Source: a virus
IMG/VR virus record: IMGVR_UViG_3300032287_000367
Span: 1-22,776 of that record
Direction: 5' to 3' (one strand)
Length of the DNA: 22,776 bases
A model generated the notes under the pieces. It did no database searches. It was not told the origin of the DNA and saw only the letters and a list, made by a program, of their open reading frames with translations. This document shows positions 2,520-21,606 of this stretch, piece by piece (position 1 is the first letter of the stretch; each line of letters starts with the position of its first letter). A program made the position numbers and the translations under genes.

Positions 2520-2712
2520 TATCAAAGAACCAGAGTGGATCTTTCCATTCGATGCAATGGAGGTGGGGGAGAGTTTCTTCATTCCCACCTTGCGCCCTGC
2601 CGAGATAATCTACGCCCTAGAGAGTGGAGCCAAGCGCGCCGAGGTAAGAGTCAAGTGCTATGTCACGCACAAGGACAACCACCTTGGAGTCCGCGCTTGG
2701 CGTCTTCGTTAG
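2506..2712 (+). CDS. Small conserved phage protein of unknown function (68 aa)
   Basis: A short soluble protein encoded directly behind the primase-helicase. An upstream in-frame ATG exists at 2446, but the ATG at 2506 is preferred because it has an AGGTGAG ribosome binding site 7 bases upstream and overlaps the helicase stop by only 14 bases. The protein has the pattern PFDAMEVGESFFIP near the start and GVRAWRL at the very end. I recognise this pattern from many small phage and plasmid proteins of about 60-80 residues, usually annotated as hypothetical; several basic residues lie between the two motifs. No catalytic motif is visible. Its position suggests a replication-associated or DNA-binding accessory role, but that is inference only. 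Its stop codon overlaps the stop of the convergent late operon. Confidence 0.75.
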   Translation: MNPSDIKEPEWIFPFDAMEVGESFFIPTLRPAEIIYALESGAKRAEVRVKCYVTHKDNHLGVRAWRLR

Positions 2713-5700
2713 CGCTCTAGCCCCATAGCTTTAAAGTCTTGTACAAGGCGGTACTTGAGCATATTTTGTTCAAGAATAACCAGCTTTAACAACGCATCTC
2801 TATCTTTTATAGCCAAGTATTTATTGTTCCGAATCTCGGTAGCCCGTTGACGCATTTCATTAAGCTCACCTTGTGCTGATTGGTACTGCTCAACAATGCT
2901 TGGATACAAAGGATTTTCAGCTACGAACTCCGCATAAAGAGCAGGGTTTCGTTTATCTAGAGTAACTAAACGTTTATCTATCTCTTTAATTTTTTGCTCT
3001 ATCTTGCCGTACTCACGAGAATCAACGTTGGTCTTAGCGCCAAAAAACGAACCAAACAATGGCAGGTCTGTCTTAGGATTAAATTCTTTTTCACCTTTAC
3101 CAAGATTAGTCCACGAATACATCAACTCTGCAATCTTAGCTACACCATCAAGGTAACTGTTTGTAAAGAAGTACATTGTGTTTGGAGATATATCAAAAGC
3201 GCCATGAGTTGATTCGTATAAACCATCAGCTACATCTTTGTAGATTTCTGGAATGCGGTCACCGCCTGTATAGGCGTCACCCATACGACGTTGAGAAGCG
3301 CTGTTAATTGCTTGCCCAACACCGTTTATGTTTGCAACCCATTCAATGAATGGACGAATTACGGTAGGGGCAACTGAGTCCAAGACCCACATAACTTTAT
3401 TGTCTACAAAAGGAATTTTAGACATTGGTAATGGCAAGAACGCATCAGTCATGATCGTAAATGCAATATTGCTTGCTGCCTCAAGAGGAGTAATTGTTCC
3501 AGCCAACATAGCAGCAAACTGTGCACCACTTGCAGCAAACGCGCCCGGGCCAAACCCCCAAGGTATTTGGAATACGACGTCTTTACCAAGACCAAGTCTT
3601 TCAGACACTTCATTTGGAATATGGAAGCGAGCATAACGAGACCACTGCTCCATGTTATCCGTTAATGCAGCGTTACGTTCCCATTCATCATCTGGTGCGC
3701 CCATCATAGACAGTGCAAAAAGTCCACCGCCCATAGCAATCAGCGATCCTGTCATAAAAGACGCGTTACGCTTTCGTATTCTAAAAGTTTCTTCGTATTT
3801 TGCTTTTGCGGTAGGGTTGTTTTCAATCACGGGCGGCAGGTCTTGCATTGCGCGTTTTACCGAAGTAAAAGCAGGTAACACTGATTCAAGCGCGCGTACA
3901 GCGCCAGTGGCTGATGGCTTACTAAACATATAGAAAGCCCCCATGACTTTGCCCCACTCACCTTGTTGTGAGAAGTTTGCAAGGTTCAGCGTAAATGCAG
4001 CTGCTTCTTCAGCTGCAGCACGTTCAGCTGGGGACAATTCTCCGTTTGGACCTTTCTTGTCTGACATACCGCCAGCAATGTTTTGTTTAAGTGCCCGTTC
4101 TTTGTACAGAGAATACATAGCCGTACGACTAGTAAACTCAAACATGTTGTTCCAGCTATCTAGCAGTTTAGTTGCGCTGATAGGGTCAGTGATAATGTTG
4201 TTTTTGCCAAAAGAATTTTCACTAAGAGTCTCAAGGTTTGACTTTAGAGAGAAGCTTTCCATGTAGGTGCTCTTGCCGCCATATCGAATCATCTCAAGCA
4301 TGTCACGAATGAACGGGTCTTTTGCCGCCATATCGCTCATGATTTTTTTACTGCCAGCGCTTCCAATTTCTTCCAGCACAGCAATATTCATGGCCTTACC
4401 CAAACCATTTTTAGTAACCGCCATAGCCACATCTTTTAGATATGCAGCAGCGCCTAGTGGACCAATCTTTTCGCTTGTGGCGGCGTTCCATGCGTTGGTT
4501 AACGTGTTTACTACAAAGTCTTTTGGTGCAAAGTTGTAGTTAAAACGTGTGTGCATCGAGCCAAAGAAGCCGGTAATACGGTTAGCCGCGTCCCATAACG
4601 GAGTTTTTTCTCTAAATGGGTAACGAATAGCTTGCAGCAATTTAGGATTGTCAATAGCGATGATGTTCATAGAACCATCAGCTTTGTAGTTAAAGATGTA
4701 CTTGCTATTAGCGCCTTTGTATTTAGATAAATCTACAGTTTCACGCTCCCAAAACGGGACTGTTTTAACCACCCTGCCAGGTATAACTCCTGTACCCGTC
4801 GGGTTATACGCATCTTTGCTAGTAGTTGGTTCAACTGCATTTTCAACAGACTGCGTAAAGTCTTTACGCCCAGCACGACTAGCCGCTCTATAACCGTCAT
4901 AGATCATTTGCAGCAACGGGTTATCCGACGTAGAGAAACGGCCTTCAGCAGCATGAATTTCATCCTGCATTTCAGCGCCATTCATCTTGCTGTTGGGGTC
5001 AATCATGTCATCCACTTTGGTGTGCTTAGACAGACCCTTAAACGGCATGTAGTATTGATAGTTATAGATGCCAACAATATTGGATACAGGCATTGACCAG
5101 TAGTTGCCAATCTTGTTGAGTTCGGCAGTGGCATCTGTAATGATCTTTACTTGATCAAACATTTCTTTAATTAACGCTTGCTCTTCCTTACTCTTTGCTA
5201 GGAACTCAGTCATACGTTTATTGACTGTAGCCTCTTCAATACCAAGAGCGTTATATATTGGAGCGTTTTTGTCCGTATCTATGCCCTTGTGCTTTGGATT
5301 TTTAGCAAAACGCTGACGCATCTTTTCGCTGATGCGGGGGCTATCACCTAGCGCATCGGCATGGTTGGTAGCAAGGTACTCTAGCTCTTTACGAATAGCA
5401 GCTTTTTGCTGATCATTCAATGCAACTTTATGTATCAGGCCGTCCACCCCAGTGCGAGGATCACCCATAAGCTGAATACGACGCTCAGCGGCGCTAATTG
5501 GTTTGCCGTTATGCGTCAGGTTTTGAGTTTTACTCAAAGGTACGGATGTAATCCATTTAGCAAAGCGGCGTTCAGTTGCGCCAAACATTTCTGCTAATCT
5601 ATGAAACTGATCAAGACCTTTTTCGGTATTTTGGTTAGACGTCAGCAACCAATTATTAAAAGTATCATGCAGTTTTTGCAAGGGCTGCTGCAGATAGTCA

Positions 5701-8700
5701 ATAGCAAATCTAACGCCTTGGTTTAAAGCTAAGTCTTGTTTTTCGCTGACATTATTAAACGCGCCCGTAGGATCACGATTAAGAAGCCCCGCCATATTTA
5801 ATTCATTTTCATACGCGCGAATATGCTGACGACGGCTCTGCGCTTTAGTAACAAAGTCTCTCCAACCGTGACGGCTAAAAGCGCGTTTGATCTTACCCAA
5901 TCTTGATAGGTCTCCGGCGGTATCTACGCCATACTTTTCTTTATTGCTCGGTTCATAATTTTTATCTTTTTCATACAGCCCAGTTTCTCGAGACTCAGCT
6001 GTCTTAGGCACTGCCGGCTGTTGCCCTTTTGGTTTTTTAGCCGACAGTGTTTCTAGATTAATTGGTTCAGTTGGTACAGACAAGATGTCTTCAAATGCGC
6101 CAGACAACTCCACCATAAAGTTGGGGGACTTTAACGCGCCAGCAGGCACTTTAAAGATACCCGCCATGGCTTTTTTAAACGCAGACCACTGAGACTTCTC
6201 TGTTGGCAGAATGGTAAAGATGTCTTCAGTGCCTAGCTTTAATTTGGCAGCAATATCCAACGCGCTGAACTCAGCGTAGTCAATCCCTTGCTCAGCCAAA
6301 TCTGCTTGGAAGAACTTATCAGTCATAGCATAGGCTATGAATTCAAATGGGCTTGTAAACGCCTCGGGGTAATCGCCTTGCAACTCAAACTGAGTTTGGC
6401 GCATGATTGTTAAAATCTGTTCAACACCTTTAATCTGGCGCTCGGTCAGTTGGTTCTTCTGACCGTTCATGTACATGTACATTACGCGAACAGTAGCAGC
6501 GTGGGCCACCTCGTGCAGTAATGTAGGCACAGTCAAGCCAGAAAGCGAAAGTGTAATAGTGTCAGTGTAGGGATCGTAGATACCCAAATCGCCATCAGGT
6601 AATCTATCAATAAATTCAATTTTAGTTTTTAGTCCAAGGTTACCCAATAGATTGGCAACGTAGCCAAACATTTTGTTGCGGGAGTCGCTGTTCTTTTTAA
6701 GTGTGTCGCTTACATCTTGCAGCGCTAAGCCAAGACGCCCTTTTTGCAAATGCTCAATGACACTCTTTGATAGTTGCAGCGTACCACGACCAAGAGATGT
6801 AGACGCCACATCGCCATATGTTCTACGAAGCTTCTCTAACTCTTCTTTGTTTTGTTCGGCTTCTTTGCGTACTTCTTCTTGGCGCTTGTTGATGTTAGCG
6901 AGTTCAGCTTTTTTCTGATCATCAGACAGTTCACGATTTTCTTTGAGCAACGCCTCACCGGCTTTTGCAAACGCAACGTCTTGTTGCAAGCCAGCGTTAT
7001 TTACAATTTGACTAAGGTAGGCTTGTTGCACTGCGCGTGATAGGTCGCCCCAACGCGGGAACGAAACATTAAACATCTTAGATGCAGTGTTTCGATTGTC
7101 TTCGTAATTTTTAATAGTGCGCTGTTCACCAACAGTTGTAGTACCTTGCCCGTACCCCTTGCCACGACCGCCTGTTTCTTTACGGTAATTAATTAACGCT
7201 TGCGCAGCTTTGCGATGTTCTGGCATGTTGCCATAACGGACGTTTTCAAAGTAGACATCTTTATCAACTGCACTTAGATCAGACCACTCTGGCAATTCAG
7301 GAAATTCTTCCCTTGCTTTATCATAGTTGTCACGGTTTTCTTGTGATATAGAGCCAGCTTTTGTAGGCTCCAACCCAAACTTTGCTTCAGCTTCAGTTTG
7401 CTTCCGTTCTTGTTCAGCGTCGTATCTAGCATAGATATCTTCTTTTTTTAAAGCGCCATTATCTGTAGATTCGTTAAGTAAACGAGTACGCTCTGCTTCA
7501 GCTTCCGCCTCATAGCGCTGACCAAGCTCCATAGCATCTTTTGCATTTTGCTCTGGCGTAGCATTTGGGTCAGCTACAAAAGCAGGATGAGAGTCTTGCT
7601 GAATAGCAGCAAGTTTAGGATCAGTCTCACCTGTCTTCAAGAAATGTTGTAGCCAACCTTTTACTGTTGTTGGTCGCTTGGCTGAAAGGGTTGAGGGCGG
7701 TTGTTTTCCTTCCGCTTTTGTTTGCTTGGTTTCAGTGGTCTCAGTGCCAAGGGTTTCTCCTGCTGGTGGTAAAGTTTTAATGTATTGGTCGATAGCAGCC
7801 GCTACTTCGGGGGAGTTACCGTATTTAGTAATTAATTCGGCAGGGGTTGCGCCTTCATTATGCTCATCTGCAATGATGCGCTGTGTTACGGGACTTATTA
7901 ATGTAAAGGGCTGCTGCTTTGCTCCAGCCAAATTTGCCCCAGCATTTGTTCCAGTAGATACCACTCCACCGGGTTGAGATCCAGCAGCTCCTGCGGCGGT
8001 CTGGCTTTGGTTGGCGAGTGTAGCCACTCCAGCGCCTGCTCCACCTGCTTGTGTGTTAATTCCTGTAGCATCAGGTGCTCCTTGTTGTGCAAGGTGGTTT
8101 CTAATAAGTTCAACAGCTTCACTATTTTTTGTTCCTACTGGAATGCTGAGACCAACTGCTCTTGCAATCTGTCTGTATTCAGATTGTTTAATAGTTTCAC
8201 CACTGTCAATTTTTCCAACGTAGTCATTAGCAGCTTGGATTGATTCGGGCGTTACACCTTCAGCAGTAATTTTGGGCGCTCTAGTTTTCTTAGGCGCTGG
8301 TGTAGTCTCAGTTACTTCAGGAGCCGCAACGTCAGCAACAATAGGATTGCCTGCCGCATCTGTAGCAGGCATCAATAGATTAGCGCTCTCTTTGTCAAAG
8401 CCTTTAATCGTAGGCGGTATGACGTCTTTATTAACTGTGAGGTCGCCTCTATATGTTTTACCAGCGGCTTCAGCTTCAGCGCCAGCTTTCTGAAGTTTGT
8501 TTACATAGTGAGTCTTAGCGCCGCCCACTGTTCCGGGGCCAACTGACATAGCAAACGCAGCGCCAGCAGTATCAACATATTCACGCAAAGCTTCCGCATC
8601 GGTCAATGACAATTTTGCGCCATAGCGTTCAGCCATTGTTTGGATTTCTTCAGCGGGGATTTCTTTGAGACCAGTTGTTGCAATACGCTTTGCAATGTCT

Positions 8701-9752
8701 AACGTTAAAGATTTAGTAGCTTGTTCACCAATCTTTAAAGCGTTAACACCAATTTTATTTATGAAGAAATCAGCTACGCTGTGAACAGCGGCAGCGGTAG
8801 CAAGACGACCATATTCAATATCTTCTACATCCATGCCAGCGCGTTCGGCTTCGTTTACCGCACGGCTTGTAGTCTCGCCCGTGCCGTGTAAACCAGCTTG
8901 ACCCACCATACCAGCAGTTGCGCCATACGCTTTAGCGCCAGCTTTTCCATAGGCTTTAGCCGCAGTCTCACTTGCCGCAAGCAAAACATTTTTACTCTGA
9001 GTTTCAATAAATTTAGCGCCAGCAGCTTCGCCAGCAACTTTAGCGGCTTGTTTAGTAGCGCCTTCAGCCAGAGCTTTTTTAGCCTCAGTCTCAATAATAT
9101 TTTCAGCAGCTTCTACGATTCCTTTTTTAACTAGAGTTTTAGAAACCGCAGCGCTTATTGCGCCGGGTATAGCTCCTGCTCCCGCGCCTGTTAAAGCACC
9201 TACACCAGCACCAATACCCATAACGGCAAGGGTCTCGCCTACGTTAGCAATACCTGAACCAATGTTGTATGGGAGCCATTCAGTAACAACAGAGCCAATA
9301 CCTTTTTCCCACGCTCTTGTCAGCGAATCAGACTCACGAGTCACTTGCTTGGACTCACCAATGTCCATCGACTCTTTACCGCTCTCAATTAGACTCTGCC
9401 CAGTTTCTGTAGCGCCAAGTTTCTTCAGGCCCATACCTGTAAATACTTTTGCGCCACCATAGGTTTCTTGAAGTTGAGGCAGGTAGTTATAAATGCCGCG
9501 CATGAAATCGCCAGTCTCATCATCGTCTGGCAACTGCGTTGTATTTTTCCCTTTAGGGCCTGTAGCCACAGGGGGTGTGGCGGGTTTAGGTGCTTCCTGC
9601 TTAGGAGTGCTTAAATGTTTAAGAAGAGCAGCGTCATCGTACCCCGCAGCCCTAGCTTTATTAATGTCTAAGGTGGAGTCCTTGGCTAAGTAATCTACGA
9701 TATCGGCATCGGAGTAGCCCGCTGCTCGTGCCTTCTCAATATCTAGCGCCAT
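2709..9752 (-). CDS. Giant virion-associated polyvalent protein with zincin metallopeptidase motif (2347 aa)
   Basis: Probably carried in the particle and ejected with the DNA, or acting early in the host; this role is inferred from size, domain mix and position at the end of the late operon. Visible parts in order: two copies of a LDI-KARAAGY-DA motif (residues 3-49); a glycine-zipper hydrophobic stretch (about 173-203); a SAP-like helical motif (about 510-555); charged Glu/Lys/Arg-rich and coiled-coil segments (about 735-795 and 935-976); a zincin motif HEVAH (H1080, E1081, H1084) with a candidate third ligand E1137 in FEFIAYAMTD; a region around 1720-1750 resembling the large polyvalent protein-associated domain 38; and a hydrophobic segment near 1996-2016. 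The start has an AAGGAG site 6 bases upstream. T7 gp16 (about 1300 aa) is an analogue in position and size class only. The metallopeptidase call is good from the motif; its substrate is unknown. Confidence 0.82.
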   Translation of the reverse strand: MALDIEKARAAGYSDADIVDYLAKDSTLDINKARAAGYDDAALLKHLSTPKQEAPKPATPPVATGPKGKNTTQLPDDDETGDFMRGIYNYLPQLQETYGGAKVFTGMGLKKLGATETGQSLIESGKESMDIGESKQVTRESDSLTRAWEKGIGSVVTEWLPYNIGSGIANVGETLAVMGIGAGVGALTGAGAGAIPGAISAAVSKTLVKKGIVEAAENIIETEAKKALAEGATKQAAKVAGEAAGAKFIETQSKNVLLAASETAAKAYGKAGAKAYGATAGMVGQAGLHGTGETTSRAVNEAERAGMDVEDIEYGRLATAAAVHSVADFFINKIGVNALKIGEQATKSLTLDIAKRIATTGLKEIPAEEIQTMAERYGAKLSLTDAEALREYVDTAGAAFAMSVGPGTVGGAKTHYVNKLQKAGAEAEAAGKTYRGDLTVNKDVIPPTIKGFDKESANLLMPATDAAGNPIVADVAAPEVTETTPAPKKTRAPKITAEGVTPESIQAANDYVGKIDSGETIKQSEYRQIARAVGLSIPVGTKNSEAVELIRNHLAQQGAPDATGINTQAGGAGAGVATLANQSQTAAGAAGSQPGGVVSTGTNAGANLAGAKQQPFTLISPVTQRIIADEHNEGATPAELITKYGNSPEVAAAIDQYIKTLPPAGETLGTETTETKQTKAEGKQPPSTLSAKRPTTVKGWLQHFLKTGETDPKLAAIQQDSHPAFVADPNATPEQNAKDAMELGQRYEAEAEAERTRLLNESTDNGALKKEDIYARYDAEQERKQTEAEAKFGLEPTKAGSISQENRDNYDKAREEFPELPEWSDLSAVDKDVYFENVRYGNMPEHRKAAQALINYRKETGGRGKGYGQGTTTVGEQRTIKNYEDNRNTASKMFNVSFPRWGDLSRAVQQAYLSQIVNNAGLQQDVAFAKAGEALLKENRELSDDQKKAELANINKRQEEVRKEAEQNKEELEKLRRTYGDVASTSLGRGTLQLSKSVIEHLQKGRLGLALQDVSDTLKKNSDSRNKMFGYVANLLGNLGLKTKIEFIDRLPDGDLGIYDPYTDTITLSLSGLTVPTLLHEVAHAATVRVMYMYMNGQKNQLTERQIKGVEQILTIMRQTQFELQGDYPEAFTSPFEFIAYAMTDKFFQADLAEQGIDYAEFSALDIAAKLKLGTEDIFTILPTEKSQWSAFKKAMAGIFKVPAGALKSPNFMVELSGAFEDILSVPTEPINLETLSAKKPKGQQPAVPKTAESRETGLYEKDKNYEPSNKEKYGVDTAGDLSRLGKIKRAFSRHGWRDFVTKAQSRRQHIRAYENELNMAGLLNRDPTGAFNNVSEKQDLALNQGVRFAIDYLQQPLQKLHDTFNNWLLTSNQNTEKGLDQFHRLAEMFGATERRFAKWITSVPLSKTQNLTHNGKPISAAERRIQLMGDPRTGVDGLIHKVALNDQQKAAIRKELEYLATNHADALGDSPRISEKMRQRFAKNPKHKGIDTDKNAPIYNALGIEEATVNKRMTEFLAKSKEEQALIKEMFDQVKIITDATAELNKIGNYWSMPVSNIVGIYNYQYYMPFKGLSKHTKVDDMIDPNSKMNGAEMQDEIHAAEGRFSTSDNPLLQMIYDGYRAASRAGRKDFTQSVENAVEPTTSKDAYNPTGTGVIPGRVVKTVPFWERETVDLSKYKGANSKYIFNYKADGSMNIIAIDNPKLLQAIRYPFREKTPLWDAANRITGFFGSMHTRFNYNFAPKDFVVNTLTNAWNAATSEKIGPLGAAAYLKDVAMAVTKNGLGKAMNIAVLEEIGSAGSKKIMSDMAAKDPFIRDMLEMIRYGGKSTYMESFSLKSNLETLSENSFGKNNIITDPISATKLLDSWNNMFEFTSRTAMYSLYKERALKQNIAGGMSDKKGPNGELSPAERAAAEEAAAFTLNLANFSQQGEWGKVMGAFYMFSKPSATGAVRALESVLPAFTSVKRAMQDLPPVIENNPTAKAKYEETFRIRKRNASFMTGSLIAMGGGLFALSMMGAPDDEWERNAALTDNMEQWSRYARFHIPNEVSERLGLGKDVVFQIPWGFGPGAFAASGAQFAAMLAGTITPLEAASNIAFTIMTDAFLPLPMSKIPFVDNKVMWVLDSVAPTVIRPFIEWVANINGVGQAINSASQRRMGDAYTGGDRIPEIYKDVADGLYESTHGAFDISPNTMYFFTNSYLDGVAKIAELMYSWTNLGKGEKEFNPKTDLPLFGSFFGAKTNVDSREYGKIEQKIKEIDKRLVTLDKRNPALYAEFVAENPLYPSIVEQYQSAQGELNEMRQRATEIRNNKYLAIKDRDALLKLVILEQNMLKYRLVQDFKAMGLER

Positions 9753-17610: not shown

Positions 17611-18039
17611 TCAAGCATACAGCCGCGTGCCAGTTTTGTCGATAATTAACGCTTGTTTTCTTGGGGCGCGAGCAGGTTCGTTTGGAATACTAATATGCGT
17701 CCAGCGATCAAATTCACGAATGACTTGGTCATAGGGCAAGCCAGCGGCAATGATGGTTTTGACAACCTCATCAGGAGTCACGCCAGGAACCCGAATGTCA
17801 GCAGCGCAGCCGATGCGGTGTTGAGAAGTATCTTTTGAACCCACCGCATCATTGACTTGCTTACTACGAAAAGCTGAATTAACCATGATGGGCTTGCCGC
17901 CCAAGGCAGTTTTGACCTCCTCAAGGAACGCCGCAAGGCGTTTAATGTTCTCAAGTTCAGCTTCATTTGGCTCATTGTCAAACTCCCGGTGGTCAGTGTG
18001 AGTTAACTCTTCAAGCGTAAAGTGTTCAGTCAAGTTCAT
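17611..18039 (-). CDS. M15-type peptidoglycan peptidase, endolysin (142 aa)
   Basis: Cell-wall peptidase expected to cut peptide stems of peptidoglycan at the end of infection. The zinc ligands of the M15 family are in place: H74 in SQHRIG, D81 in AADI and H115 in WTHISI, with acidic residues E109 and D111 just before the last ligand, as expected for the catalytic acid. The conserved SAFRS at 55-59 is also present. Its length matches single-domain endolysins of this type, and there is no separate wall-binding domain or signal peptide, so it needs the holin for access. It overlaps the holin gene upstream by 4 bases (ATGA). Whether it acts as a carboxypeptidase or an L-alanyl-D-glutamate endopeptidase cannot be told from sequence alone. 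Confidence 0.93.
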   Translation of the reverse strand: MNLTEHFTLEELTHTDHREFDNEPNEAELENIKRLAAFLEEVKTALGGKPIMVNSAFRSKQVNDAVGSKDTSQHRIGCAADIRVPGVTPDEVVKTIIAAGLPYDQVIREFDRWTHISIPNEPARAPRKQALIIDKTGTRLYA

Positions 18040-18443
18040 TTTTTCAACCTATCAGCAATTTTTTCCATAGTGCGTCCGCCAAAATAGAAGGACATAACAA
18101 GCATACCCCACTGCCCTAGTAGTTCTACGTATGCGCCACGAGTTTCATACTCGAAGATAGACGCAATGGCAAAGCCAGAATAGGCTACCAGCAAAAAGAT
18201 CAACGTCATGGGTCGGATGTTTTTAGATAGCCAAGAATCACTAGCCATGTCTGCTTCAGTGCGGCGGGTGACGTTTTCTTGCTCAATCTCATACAACTTG
18301 GTTTCGTTAGCCAGTTTAGTCAACTCACCGTCTTGCGCCATCTTAGCCAGTTCAAGTTGCGCCTTGGCTTTGGCCTCTGGGTCTGGAATTAGTTTGTCAA
18401 TCAGTTTGCCACCAACTTGTAGCAGTGCGTCTAGTCCTAGCAT
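18036..18443 (-). CDS. Holin, '3TM holin' family (135 aa)
   Basis: Inner-membrane pore protein that times lysis and releases the endolysin. The N-terminal half is a charged amphipathic helix region (about residues 20-65) and is followed by WLSKNIRPMTL, a hallmark of the holin family first described for gene-transfer-agent release. Two clear membrane segments follow (about 79-97 and 105-124), then a short basic tail ending KIADRLKK. The family name refers to three segments; the first is less obvious here and could be the weakly hydrophobic N-terminus. The start has a strong GGAGG site 7 bases upstream. The stop overlaps the endolysin start by 4 bases (ATGA), the typical arrangement of a lysis pair. 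Confidence 0.9.
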   Translation of the reverse strand: MLGLDALLQVGGKLIDKLIPDPEAKAKAQLELAKMAQDGELTKLANETKLYEIEQENVTRRTEADMASDSWLSKNIRPMTLIFLLVAYSGFAIASIFEYETRGAYVELLGQWGMLVMSFYFGGRTMEKIADRLKK

Positions 18444-18445
18444 AT

Positions 18446-19165
18446 TTAATCCTCCGACATATCAGTTGCAGCCAAGTTTATGCGGGTCTTTAACGCCGCA
18501 ATATCTTCTGGCTTATCTTTAAACCCAATAGCTACATACCCTGCAAACTTACCCATGTCAGGGGGAATGGAGCCTCGGCACATGAACTTTACACCCTGCT
18601 TTACACCCCATTCGCCAACTTTAGATGACGGGTTGAATTCTTCGCAAAGAATTTCACCATTAAGCATGGCCACCATAGCGGCATTGCGGTCTGAGCTTGC
18701 ATTAAACAAAGACGTTACCGTGCCTTCCAACGCCTTTTCTCTTGAGCCATCAGAGTTGAGCGCCAACACCGTGGTGCGGCTGTTAACCGTTAAATTGGCT
18801 TTGTGAACCAACACCACTAAACCGTCAACGTCTTTCATCAAACTACGAGCAGGGGCGAGTAGTGCTTCCTGCTTTGCTAACTGGGGCATTTTGTCCTGAA
18901 CCGTAATAGCATGAAGGATGACCTGCCTAGAATCCCAAGCAAAGTACCCAGCAAAGAACAGGAACGACAGCAGAATAACTGTGAACAGTTTAAACGGGTT
19001 ATCTACCCACTCAATCAGCCCAATGATTTTTCCAAGGTTGCTGTCGTCTTTTTTGACTTCAGGCTTGGGCGCAGGAGGAGTTGGGGGGGCAACGACTTCC
19101 ACCTTGGGTTTAACAATCCTACGCTTAACGGGCGCTACCTTGGCTGGGGGTTTCTTTGTAACCAT
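18446..19165 (-). CDS. Single-pass membrane protein with Pro/Lys-rich N-terminus and large outer domain (239 aa)
   Basis: Function unknown. Residues 1-46 are rich in Lys, Pro and Val, with repeats such as PPTPPAPKPEVKK. One clear membrane segment follows (about 58-77, FKLFTVILLSFLFFAGYFAW), and then about 160 residues that should face the periplasm, given the positively charged N-terminus. The outer part includes NLTVNSRTTVLAL, a C-containing EILCEEFNPSSK and FMCRGSIPPDMG-KFAGYVAIGF, reminiscent of small alpha/beta sensor-like domains, though I cannot name a family. It is 2 bases upstream of the holin and downstream of three more small genes. A role in lysis control, spanin-like membrane disruption or superinfection exclusion is possible; none is shown. 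The start overlaps the stop of the preceding gene (TAATG) and lacks a good ribosome binding site, so coupling is likely. Confidence 0.72.
   Translation of the reverse strand: MVTKKPPAKVAPVKRRIVKPKVEVVAPPTPPAPKPEVKKDDSNLGKIIGLIEWVDNPFKLFTVILLSFLFFAGYFAWDSRQVILHAITVQDKMPQLAKQEALLAPARSLMKDVDGLVVLVHKANLTVNSRTTVLALNSDGSREKALEGTVTSLFNASSDRNAAMVAMLNGEILCEEFNPSSKVGEWGVKQGVKFMCRGSIPPDMGKFAGYVAIGFKDKPEDIAALKTRINLAATDMSED
18451..18455 (-). promoter_or_regulatory. Ribosome binding site for the holin
   Basis: GGAGG on the - strand lies 7 bases before the holin ATG at 18443-18441 and inside the end of the previous gene. It is the strongest ribosome binding site of the lysis region. Confidence 0.65.
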
Positions 19166-19404
19166 TATGCGTATATGTCCAATTTACGGTTTGTAAAAAT
19201 CTCTAGGCTAAGTTGGTTGCGTTCTGCCTTCTTTACATACAACTCAAACTCAAGATCGTCAATTTTGTCCTTCACCTTTTTCATCTTCAACGCTTGTGCA
19301 TATTCTTCTTGCATACGTTCTGCCCTGCGTTCTAACGCATCTGTCTTAGTTGGCTCGCTTCCCGGCTGAACCATTGGATACCATTTGTGTATGGGCGGGA
19401 TCAT
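19165..19404 (-). CDS. Small coiled-coil protein (79 aa)
   Basis: Unrecognised protein. After a short Pro-rich N-terminus (IPPIHKWYPMVQPG) it is almost entirely charged and helical. Residues about 25-65 form a likely coiled coil with regularly spaced Leu, Met and Ile, ending EIFTNRKLDIYA. No membrane segment or signal is seen, so it should be cytoplasmic. It overlaps the secreted-protein gene before it by 4 bases (ATGA) and the membrane-protein gene after it by one base (TAATG). That tight coupling suggests equimolar products that act together, possibly by binding the cytoplasmic Pro/Lys-rich tail of the next protein, which is speculation. Two short genes this tightly packed are unlikely to be chance reading frames. 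Confidence 0.62.
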   Translation of the reverse strand: MIPPIHKWYPMVQPGSEPTKTDALERRAERMQEEYAQALKMKKVKDKIDDLEFELYVKKAERNQLSLEIFTNRKLDIYA

Positions 19405-19688
19405 TTCTTTTCACGCTCAAGTGCTTTTTTGTATCCGTGTATGACCAATCCTCGCAACGTATGGTGATCCGAATTCCCATTCCACTCACTCATATTGTTC
19501 CACAACACTACGTAATCGGAACTCCGGCAAAACGGCTCATTTACCACCAACCAATCGTACATCTTCCGGTAACGCTCTGTTGGGTCATGTGTTCCCCAAG
19601 CGATTGAATAATACTCGCGTACATAGCAACCATTTTTGGCTGCGGCTCCAACCAACCCCAACAGCAGTAACAGAATGAGCCAACGCAT
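19401..19688 (-). CDS. Small secreted or signal-anchored protein (95 aa)
   Basis: Unrecognised protein with an obvious Sec signal: MRW, a run of seven hydrophobic residues (ILLLLLG), then VGAAAKNG, consistent with signal peptidase cleavage after AAA near residue 17. The Cys at 21 does not sit in a normal lipobox, so a lipoprotein is unlikely. The mature part has two further Cys-region features (C21 and C54 could form a disulfide), many aromatic residues, and a basic C-terminus GYKKALEREKK. The length and location beside the holin would fit an outer spanin, but the lipobox is missing. The start abuts the stop of the 31-residue gene (TAAATG) and the stop overlaps the coiled-coil gene. A lysis or exclusion accessory role is inferred. 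Confidence 0.65.
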   Translation of the reverse strand: MRWLILLLLLGLVGAAAKNGCYVREYYSIAWGTHDPTERYRKMYDWLVVNEPFCRSSDYVVLWNNMSEWNGNSDHHTLRGLVIHGYKKALEREKK

Positions 19689-19784
19689 TTACCACGCCCA
19701 ACTCCATGCAATCATGTAAGTGCCAAAGATGACAAAGACCACCATACAGGTTGCCGCAATCAATGCTTCAACCCAGTCTCTCAT
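19689..19784 (-). CDS. 31-residue single-span membrane protein
   Basis: A very short gene that fills the only apparent gap in this part of the operon. Read on the - strand it starts with ATG at 19784-19782 and ends with TAA at 19691-19689. The product is MRDWVEALIAA, then a hydrophobic core TCMVVFVIFGTYMIAW, ending in SWAW: one membrane helix with almost nothing outside. Its stop directly abuts the ATG of the secreted protein (TAAATG), and its start lies 2 bases after the stop of the tail assembly chaperone, so it is positioned exactly as a translated member of the operon. No good ribosome binding site precedes it. Membrane location is clear; a role as lysis regulator or antiholin-like peptide is a guess. 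Confidence 0.68.
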   Translation of the reverse strand: MRDWVEALIAATCMVVFVIFGTYMIAWSWAW

Positions 19785-20241: not shown

Positions 20242-20247
20242 TCCTTA
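20242..20247 (-). promoter_or_regulatory. Ribosome binding site fused to preceding stop (tail chaperone)
   Basis: TAAGGA on the - strand is both the stop codon of the 453-aa tail protein and the ribosome binding site, 5 bases before the ATG at 20236-20234. Confidence 0.6.
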
Positions 20248-21606
20248 TGTCAGTTGTGTCAGTATGTAAGTGGCAGAAAACGATGCTTCAGGATTTGTAC
20301 TGGTTGAGGAAGTTTGCGTACCTGCAGAATCAACAACACCAACAGTCCCAGCCACAAAATCGCTTGTTGCGGAAGTTAAAGATGTGCTCAGTCCAAAAGA
20401 CATGTTTAAAGGTGCTTTGTACATGTACGAAGCAACGGTGTATTGTTGCGAACCAAGCGCAAGTTGAGTTGAGCCTGCGGTAACGCTACTTGCTCCAGTG
20501 CTAGTACCGTTACTAATATACCTTTGCGCAATTATGGAGCCGGTAGTAGCATTTAGTTTAACAAATGACGGGCCTACAGAACTATTCGACCTGCCAGCTG
20601 AATAGTAGGCTGTTCCGTCGGTACTTACGGCTTCTAGAAAGTTGCCTATGCCGCCAGAATTAAGCTCTTTCTGCCAACCAATAGTTGTGTTATATATAAG
20701 ATACTCTTGATAACTAGCGGTATAGGTATTATTGTATGTTGTGAAGCCAAACAAAAAGTCTGATCCTAAAGACGTAAAACCCATGTAACCGTTTGTAAGA
20801 GATCTGGTAGGAGACGCTAATGCAATTTGCCCTATCACTACGCCTGCTGTATCGTATGTACCCGCACATATTTGGTTGGCCCCGGTAGCGCCAGCCCCTA
20901 CCACAAACGAATACGCAATGCCCGTCCCACTGGCAAAAGAGGTTAAATTCATGCGCGCTTCTGGGGCAACCGCAGGTAATATGTTACGAACCCACCGCTG
21001 TGTGCCAGCACTGGTAAAACTCATGATAAACATAGAAGCGCCAAATTCATCCCACCCGCCTACATACACGTTTTCTGATGCATCAAGACAAATACCTTCA
21101 CAATAAACATTACCACTAGCAGAAATGTGTCGCTGCCATTGCAAAACACCCGACGAGTTGTATTTAACAAGAATCCCGACAGTATTTCTAACACCTGTAA
21201 TGTACGAGTTGCCTGCAGTTGTAGTAACCATGCGGGTGTATTGTCCCCCAGTAGTAAAAGAGCGCGTAAATTGGTTTGCGCCAAGGCTAGCTACTTTGTT
21301 AAATGTCGGCAAGGAACTAGAACGGTTCATTGCAGAGTAGTAGTTGTCTGAACTGTCAAACCCTACTGATGCAAGGCTAAAGTATGTGTTGTTTGATTGC
21401 TGTTGCTGCCAGTAAGTAAAACCTACAGATTTACCGTAAAAATCGGTTGGCATTGTAATCGCGCCAGAAGCAACACCGGCTAACGAACGCACGTTGGCGT
21501 CATTCAAAGACACCGTAGCCGTTGACGCTTGACTAAGCTCAAGATTAATAGATGCCCCGGTAGTAGCACCGCCAAGACTAATTGGTCCAGAAACATTAAG
21601 AGTCAT
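20245..21606 (-). CDS. Tail protein with beta-propeller-like repeats, candidate receptor-binding protein (453 aa)
   Basis: Surface protein of the particle, likely involved in host recognition. The N-terminus (about residues 1-60) has SGPISLGGATTGASINLEL, SLNDANVRSLAG and DFYGKSV, a module I know from many phage tail proteins, probably for trimer formation or attachment. From about residue 70 onward come repeated short segments of the type DSSDNYY, TTAGNSYITG and LDASENVYVGG-WDEF, resembling SBBP-type propeller blades. The composition is rich in Ser, Thr, Gly and Asn and nearly free of Cys, as in fibres. There is no signal peptide or enzymatic motif. The gene overlaps the S74 fibre gene by one base (TAATG), has a GGAG site 8 bases before its start, and is followed by the assembly chaperone. 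The receptor-binding role is inferred. Confidence 0.8.
   Translation of the reverse strand: MTLNVSGPISLGGATTGASINLELSQASTATVSLNDANVRSLAGVASGAITMPTDFYGKSVGFTYWQQQQSNNTYFSLASVGFDSSDNYYSAMNRSSSLPTFNKVASLGANQFTRSFTTGGQYTRMVTTTAGNSYITGVRNTVGILVKYNSSGVLQWQRHISASGNVYCEGICLDASENVYVGGWDEFGASMFIMSFTSAGTQRWVRNILPAVAPEARMNLTSFASGTGIAYSFVVGAGATGANQICAGTYDTAGVVIGQIALASPTRSLTNGYMGFTSLGSDFLFGFTTYNNTYTASYQEYLIYNTTIGWQKELNSGGIGNFLEAVSTDGTAYYSAGRSNSSVGPSFVKLNATTGSIIAQRYISNGTSTGASSVTAGSTQLALGSQQYTVASYMYKAPLNMSFGLSTSLTSATSDFVAGTVGVVDSAGTQTSSTSTNPEASFSATYILTQLT

Follow-up and report, generated by a model that had tools for sequence, protein, structure and literature searches.

The holin T of phage T4 is described as having a cytoplasmic amphipathic helix, a transmembrane (TM) segment and a bridge helix, the N-terminal helix and the TM making the hole, whereas its globular domain is needed only for regulation by antiholins (PMC12162936). 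RI of T4, a small protein that binds T, resides in the periplasm and has a cleavable signal (PMC8385771, PMC11413866). Before ICP1, lysis inhibition was, according to an eLife paper of 2020, well characterised only in the T-even coliphages; the TeaA protein of ICP1, assigned to the family PF11351, is reported there to act as a holin with lysis inhibition (PMC7182436). A 2025 preprint names two dissimilar E. coli phages with lysis inhibition, T4 and N4 (PMC12642591). As for the last barrier to phage release, 91 of 677 surveyed phages (about 13%) had no identifiable spanin (PMC6139136). In the literature searched, with subscription papers outside it, there was no description of a class III holin with a GAF domain in phages, nor of a holin combined with a GAF domain and an antiholin.

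Here we describe a block of four small genes, p31, p95, p79 and p239, that is likely (probability about 0.6) to be the leading half of a phage lysis cassette, concerned with regulation and hole formation and composed of a T-type holin (p239), a regulator (p95) and the accessory proteins p79 and p31.

Gene organisation of the locus

The window, that is the whole stretch of DNA analysed, is the 22,776-base virus record IMGVR_UViG_3300032287_000367, and all genes of the block lie on its minus strand. Gene p31 (19689..19784) encodes a 31-aa peptide with a single TM and p95 (19401..19688) a 95-aa secreted, all-helical protein, whose residues 1-17 (19638..19688) resemble by eye a signal peptide with a putative cleavage site between AAA and K. 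Gene p79 (19165..19404) encodes a 79-aa charged, helical protein which, having neither TM nor signal in the hydropathy scan and family alignment, is probably cytoplasmic, and p239 (18446..19165) a 239-aa protein. The TAA stop of p31 directly abuts the ATG of p95 (TAAATG), p95 and p79 overlap by 4 nt (ATGA) and p79 and p239 by 1 nt (TAATG). After a gap of 2 nt p239 is followed by the gene of a 135-aa protein (18036..18443, minus strand) belonging to GTA_holin_3TM (PF11351), with a score of 41.3 bits against a curated cut-off of 24.8, and to the holin family phrog_3427 (E 2e-25). This gene in turn overlaps by 4 nt the gene encoding a 142-aa endolysin (17611..18039, minus strand), recognised as Peptidase_M15_3 (PF08291, E 2.6e-17) and as endolysin family phrog_894 (E 5.7e-37), in which no signal peptide was seen. 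The four-gene chain, its three junctions and its run into a holin and an endolysin are thus exactly where the first-pass annotation had placed them, and its description of p95 as secreted and of p239 as single-pass agrees with the sequences and the AF2 models.

Upstream of the block are found a gene encoding a tail-assembly-chaperone-type protein (PF16778) and tail-fibre-like genes. The 767-aa structural protein of the record is closest to those of phages of about 50-65 kb, namely DSL-LC04, 023Pt_psg01, Roseobacter phage CRP-902 and Pelagibacter phage HTVC027P (about 30-35% identity). A 2347-aa ORF (window 2709-9752) has no PHROG match and adjoins a 926-aa ORF that is likewise unmatched, both probably encoding large virion or ejection proteins. 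A 453-aa ORF (window 20245-21606), placed after a tail-fibre gene with an S74 chaperone, has no confident family; its match to beta-propeller repeats is weak and below the cut-off. An NCBIfam search with the three larger proteins of the block gave no meaningful match.

Fold and genomic context of p239

The AF2 model of p239, built from 29 sequences, has a mean pLDDT of 73, with the periplasmic domain mostly at 82-90, and contains a disordered tail of 41 residues, a helix at residues 43-53, a helix at 57-88 and an alpha/beta domain at 97-239. By DSSP of this model and the alignments, residues 57-88 (18902..18997), which start at an invariant P57, would comprise the TM helix and a periplasmic 'bridge' helix, preceded by the cytoplasmic helix 43-53, and residues 97-239 (18449..18877) a predicted periplasmic GAF-like domain with invariant C174 and C196; the orientation is presumably N-in. 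When this model was compared with solved structures by VIA-align, chains of the T4 holin T occupied ranks 1-3 of 999 (6px4_T and 6psk_T with Z 13.8, rmsd 3.2 and 3.1, and 130 and 131 aligned residues of 142 and 144, respectively; 6pxe_B with Z 13.5), the match extending over residues 97-239 of the model and 77-217 of T. Ordinary GAF domains, at Z 13.2 and below, tie with T in this ranking, differences of less than 1 being ties. Foldseek gave T at E 1.2e-4 and 2.5e-4 (the latter for 6psk_T, TM 0.69 by target) in a list headed by GAF domains, and the BFVD matches included a 'Class III holin' of Proteus phage Stubb (3.6e-6), a 'T holin lysis mediator' of Serratia PS2 (1.1e-4) and a 'Holin' of Proteus phiP4-3 (1.8e-4).

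The link to T at the sequence level is weak. Neither p239 nor four of its diverged homologs matched the Pfam family PF11031, in a test where T4 T scored 1.5e-118, and hhalign against the T family gave near full-length alignments with probabilities of 22% (E 9.6e-4) and 19% (E 1.2e-3), compared with 0.1% for an unrelated comparison. We therefore call p239 T-like and not a member of PF11031. The hydrophobic moment of the N-terminal helix was 0.27 in p239, 0.27-0.49 in its family and 0.37-0.51 in T4, none of these being significant by shuffling. Single-sequence and profile searches of the PDB sequences with p239 and p95 returned nothing meaningful. p239 belongs to phrog_31287 (E 2.4e-24), which was not detectable in seven records carrying a T holin, a search with no positive control within it. 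No relatives of p239 were found in the genome contigs collection, nor in the viral contigs when the homolog of Cronobacter phage S13 served as query.

The genomic context points in the same direction as the fold. In all ten Edwardsiella/Vibrio-type loci, which include IMG/VR phages and one contig that is probably GF-2 itself, the p239 homolog is followed by a lysozyme and Rz; the lysozyme has no visible signal, and the antiterminator Q lies upstream in GF-2 and Edno5. In three of these loci (L003, L006 and L173) the cassette has no TM-bearing ORFs other than p239, Rz and Rz1, and the records of GF-2, Edno5 and IKEMa6-1 yielded no PF11351 gene, so that p239 is the sole holin candidate in these phages. 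Homologs of p239 are also present in two Straboviridae, Cronobacter phage S13 and Citrobacter phage Ci1, from which the PF11031 T holin is absent, the four controls (T4, T5, Gary and AS4) being all found.

On the basis of the predicted fold and of the cassette context, p239 is most likely a holin of the T4 T type. The first-pass annotation had placed the four genes ahead of the holin; there is indeed a holin-family gene downstream, but the block itself probably contains a holin as well. As a single-TM, 'class III' holin, with a short helix in its cytoplasmic N-terminus and, after the TM and bridge helix, a GAF-like domain in the periplasm, p239 would gather in the inner membrane and, once triggered, would let out the signal-less endolysin, with the PF11351 protein as a second holin-type gene product.

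Conservation of the block and exchange in the holin slot

Scans of viral contigs gave 198 stretches with p239 relatives and 359 with p95 relatives, of which the best 80 of each were taken. With later scans and annotated phages they make up the 215 loci analysed, a sample biased to the closest matches in which some contigs are counted twice (e.g. L205/L250) and one IMG/VR contig (L175) is counted beside GF-2. The median dN/dS was 0.283 for p31, 0.097 for p95, 0.142 for p79 and 0.063 for p239, which indicates purifying selection on all four. Since the homologs of all four keep turning up side by side in numerous contigs (those of p31 in 98 of the 215 loci) and dN/dS is low, the block is more than a chance arrangement. 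We regard it as a genuine set of lysis-control genes that many freshwater phages have conserved. The order of the genes varies (p31-p95-p79-p239, p31-p239-p95-p79, or p239-p95 alone) and the genes remain together. In this sample p95 is present in 124 of 149 p239 loci, 42 of them with a 4-nt overlap of p239 and p95, and when identical genes are collapsed it is in the locus of 92 of 113 distinct p239 sequences. With p239 clustered at 70% identity, p95 lies in the locus for ten of 15 clusters, among them L222, a second p239 copy with p95 beside the neighbouring copy; the five without it comprise the Edwardsiella/Vibrio group, two T4-like phages, the L243 group and the L245 group.

Among loci with full flanks, 78 of 82 with p239 and 107 of 110 with p95 have an endolysin no further than 4.5 kb away, the exceptions being L223, L224 and L237 and, for p239, also L005. 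These endolysins are of four types (GH24, M15, GH108 and GH19), and a membrane protein of the PF11351 or phrog_6637 type is usually next downstream. The genes thus stay in lysis cassettes, and the random presence away from these which the first-pass annotation named as contrary evidence is not what the full-flank counts give.

Some cassettes have features of their own. In two very large phage contigs, L223 (345 kb) and L224 (262 kb), the p239-p95-p79 block has no recognised endolysin within 4.5 kb. Two p239 paralogs of 201 and 250 aa are found in a single cassette (L222 3553-4158 and 4902-5654; also in L225), and the 232-aa gene between those of L222 resembles by eye an Asp/Glu racemase. Proteins of 145-257 aa belonging to phrog_32327 are recurrent in these cassettes, where they adjoin p239 (L243 5611-6102, L241 5646-6113, L239 4526-4963 and L220 6180-6953); three have a C-terminal hydrophobic segment.

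In 60 of the 190 sampled p95 loci p239 is replaced by an unrelated membrane protein of about 93 aa (L089 4521-4805 and its equivalents), which takes exactly its place between p79 and the membrane gene that follows. It has a K/P-rich N-terminus, one hydrophobic segment by hydropathy scan and a second one by eye, and its only family matches are weak ones to holins. The mutual exclusion is exact, the 93-aa gene being found in none of the 149 p239 loci, and it holds when identical genes are collapsed (113 p239 and 144 p95 sequences); a whole-contig check of three contigs with the 93-aa type (G001, G002 and G004) found no p239 elsewhere. That membrane proteins with no relation to each other alternate at one position would be expected of holins. 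On a poorly resolved tree of p95 (120 sequences, about 95 columns) the label changes between the p239 type and the 93-aa type at least 16 times, compared with a mean of 28.9 (range 25-32) for shuffled labels. A strict specificity of p95 for p239 was considered and rejected on these switches and on the 60 loci with the 93-aa protein, which also mean that p95 has no exclusive tie to a single holin.

It is conceivable, and in our judgement rather unlikely, that p31, p95 and p79 form a portable, holin-independent lysis-timing unit, with p95 as a periplasmic sensor, p79 as its cytoplasmic helical partner and p31 as a membrane peptide. Such a unit would serve either a T-type GAF-domain holin or the 93-aa protein, together with various endolysins, in a widespread group of freshwater phages.

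Candidate regulators, spanins and known lysis systems

If the globular domain of T serves regulation, the conserved globular domain of p239 predicts a periplasmic regulator, for which p95 is the obvious candidate. Its C21 and C54 are invariant in alignments of 16 and 24 sequences, and the AF2 model (mean pLDDT 89) is a compact globular domain of four helices (23-32, 36-53, 56-73 and 76-94). Fold searches found no significant Foldseek match in the PDB, the best among 116 chains by VIA having Z 5.6. With hhalign p95 and RI gave a probability of 0.3% over 7 columns, that is no detectable homology, and the antiholin role is for this reason argued from analogy and position. T4 RI was not detectable in six p239-bearing phage records, in a search with no positive control within it, and the only relatives of p95 in the phages collection are in MW202825. 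That p95 acts as an antiholin-type regulator of lysis we regard as having somewhat less than an even chance. It would reach the periplasm by export, fold there into a small domain of four helices, in which a disulfide is probable, and determine or postpone triggering in the way that RI does with T. Accessory regulation may also come from p79 at the cytoplasmic face and from p31 within the membrane, a more tentative assignment, which we hold doubtful; BLASTP of p79 against T4 RIII gave no alignment at E<=100.

No ordinary Rz/Rz1 pair is visible in the window, a mere 22.8-kb record, as the first-pass annotation had observed. We extended the scan, a lipobox search in all frames that found the o-spanin in 6/6 control stretches, to 12 relative contigs (34-63 kb, completeness uncertain), and no convincing Rz1-like ORF or spanin was found in these or in the window; the unfiltered lipobox candidates numbered 14 in the 12 contigs, of which some were judged by eye, and 0 in the window. 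T4 spanin proteins were not detectable in nine p239 records, except for the i-spanin at E 0.0117 in S13, the T4 control being found in both cases.

These results give some room to the view that p31, p95 and p79 are an outer-membrane or envelope disruption unit standing in place of spanins, with p239 as the holin or as part of the unit. Besides the scan and its controls, the persistence of p95 in the cassette whatever the type of holin or endolysin speaks for it, as does the fact that the Edwardsiella/Vibrio loci that bear Rz/Rz1 are without p95, and phages without identifiable spanins are not exceptional in the survey cited above. The alternation is however not clean, since in two p239 contigs, G013 and G014, p95 is missing and no o-spanin was detected either, and the replacement of spanins by p95, as judged from presence and absence, was rejected as unproven. 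Moreover none of the four block genes has a lipobox or the layout of an i-spanin with its periplasmic coiled coil, p95 being predicted as compact and globular and p79 as cytoplasmic, and we find this explanation improbable. A similarly low probability is given to a role of p239 in which it makes no hole itself and, as a GAF-like sensor or antiholin anchored in the membrane, controls the adjacent PF11351 holin. GAF domains are commonly sensory, a PF11351 gene lies directly downstream, and p239 can give way to the 93-aa protein without loss of the holin-like gene downstream; the holin activity with lysis inhibition of TeaA, assigned to the same family, would also fit. Yet the checked Edwardsiella/Vibrio cassettes have no PF11351 gene or other TM candidate while their signal-less lysozyme needs a holin, the best-ranked solved structure is a holin, and TeaA is neither matched by the Pfam model nor similar by BLAST to the 135-aa protein.

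The first-pass annotation had also offered superinfection exclusion, and modules of this kind typically encode small proteins that are membrane-bound or secreted. An exclusion or other accessory module hitchhiking in the cassette could claim the PADLOC match of p79 to PDC-M63B (E 1.5e-4 over 43 residues), which is weak and probably due to helical composition. No defence model was matched by p95, p239 or p31, and the tight, repeated linkage to endolysins and the T-type fold of p239 argue against it, so that we consider it very unlikely; nothing favours exclusion beyond what a lysis inhibition like that of T and RI would imply. In the alternative that the same annotation had put forward, a different outer-membrane disruption or a lysis-timing system, the timing half is favoured by the endolysin linkage and the fold of p239, and the disruption half is weakened by G013 and G014 and by the missing lipobox and spanin layout.

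If p239 is a T-type holin, as is most likely, the cassette comprises a divergent, unannotated holin of this type, a linked exported protein and a second holin-family gene, and a likely function would be supplied for phrog_31287, a family annotated as of 'unknown function'. A T-type holin with a regulatory GAF-like domain under strong purifying selection would suggest that regulated, signal-responsive lysis is widespread, given that p239 is spread over phage contigs from the environment, the largest of 345 kb, Edwardsiella/Vibrio phages and T4 relatives without T. The few examples from the laboratory may thus understate how common timed phage release is.

Compared with T of T4 (PF11031, phrog_860; PDB 6PSK, 6PX4 and 6PXE), p239 has the same predicted layout, with an N-terminal cytoplasmic helix, a single TM, the bridge helix and, on the periplasmic side, a domain with the fold of T; the lysis context is shared as well, and T5-type relatives too are placed directly before an endolysin. 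It differs in having no PF11031 match and about 8-9% identity in the structural alignment, in the position of its two invariant cysteines, in a much longer K/P-rich cytoplasmic tail and in its linked lysis genes. Like RI, p95 is a small exported helical protein with two conserved cysteines, paired with a T-type holin candidate; unlike RI, which is encoded away from T, it is encoded beside the holin, lacks profile similarity to RI and also occurs with a holin candidate that is not of the T type. The 135-aa protein is a PF11351 member that here follows a T-type holin candidate as a second holin-family gene. The cassette neighbourhood is the same as that of Rz/Rz1 in the Edwardsiella/Vibrio relatives of p239, whereas no such pair was found in the window and its four genes have no lipobox or i-spanin layout. 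If p31, p95 and p79 were a portable unit, lysis would be controlled in another way than by the dedicated holin-antiholin pairs of T4 and ICP1.
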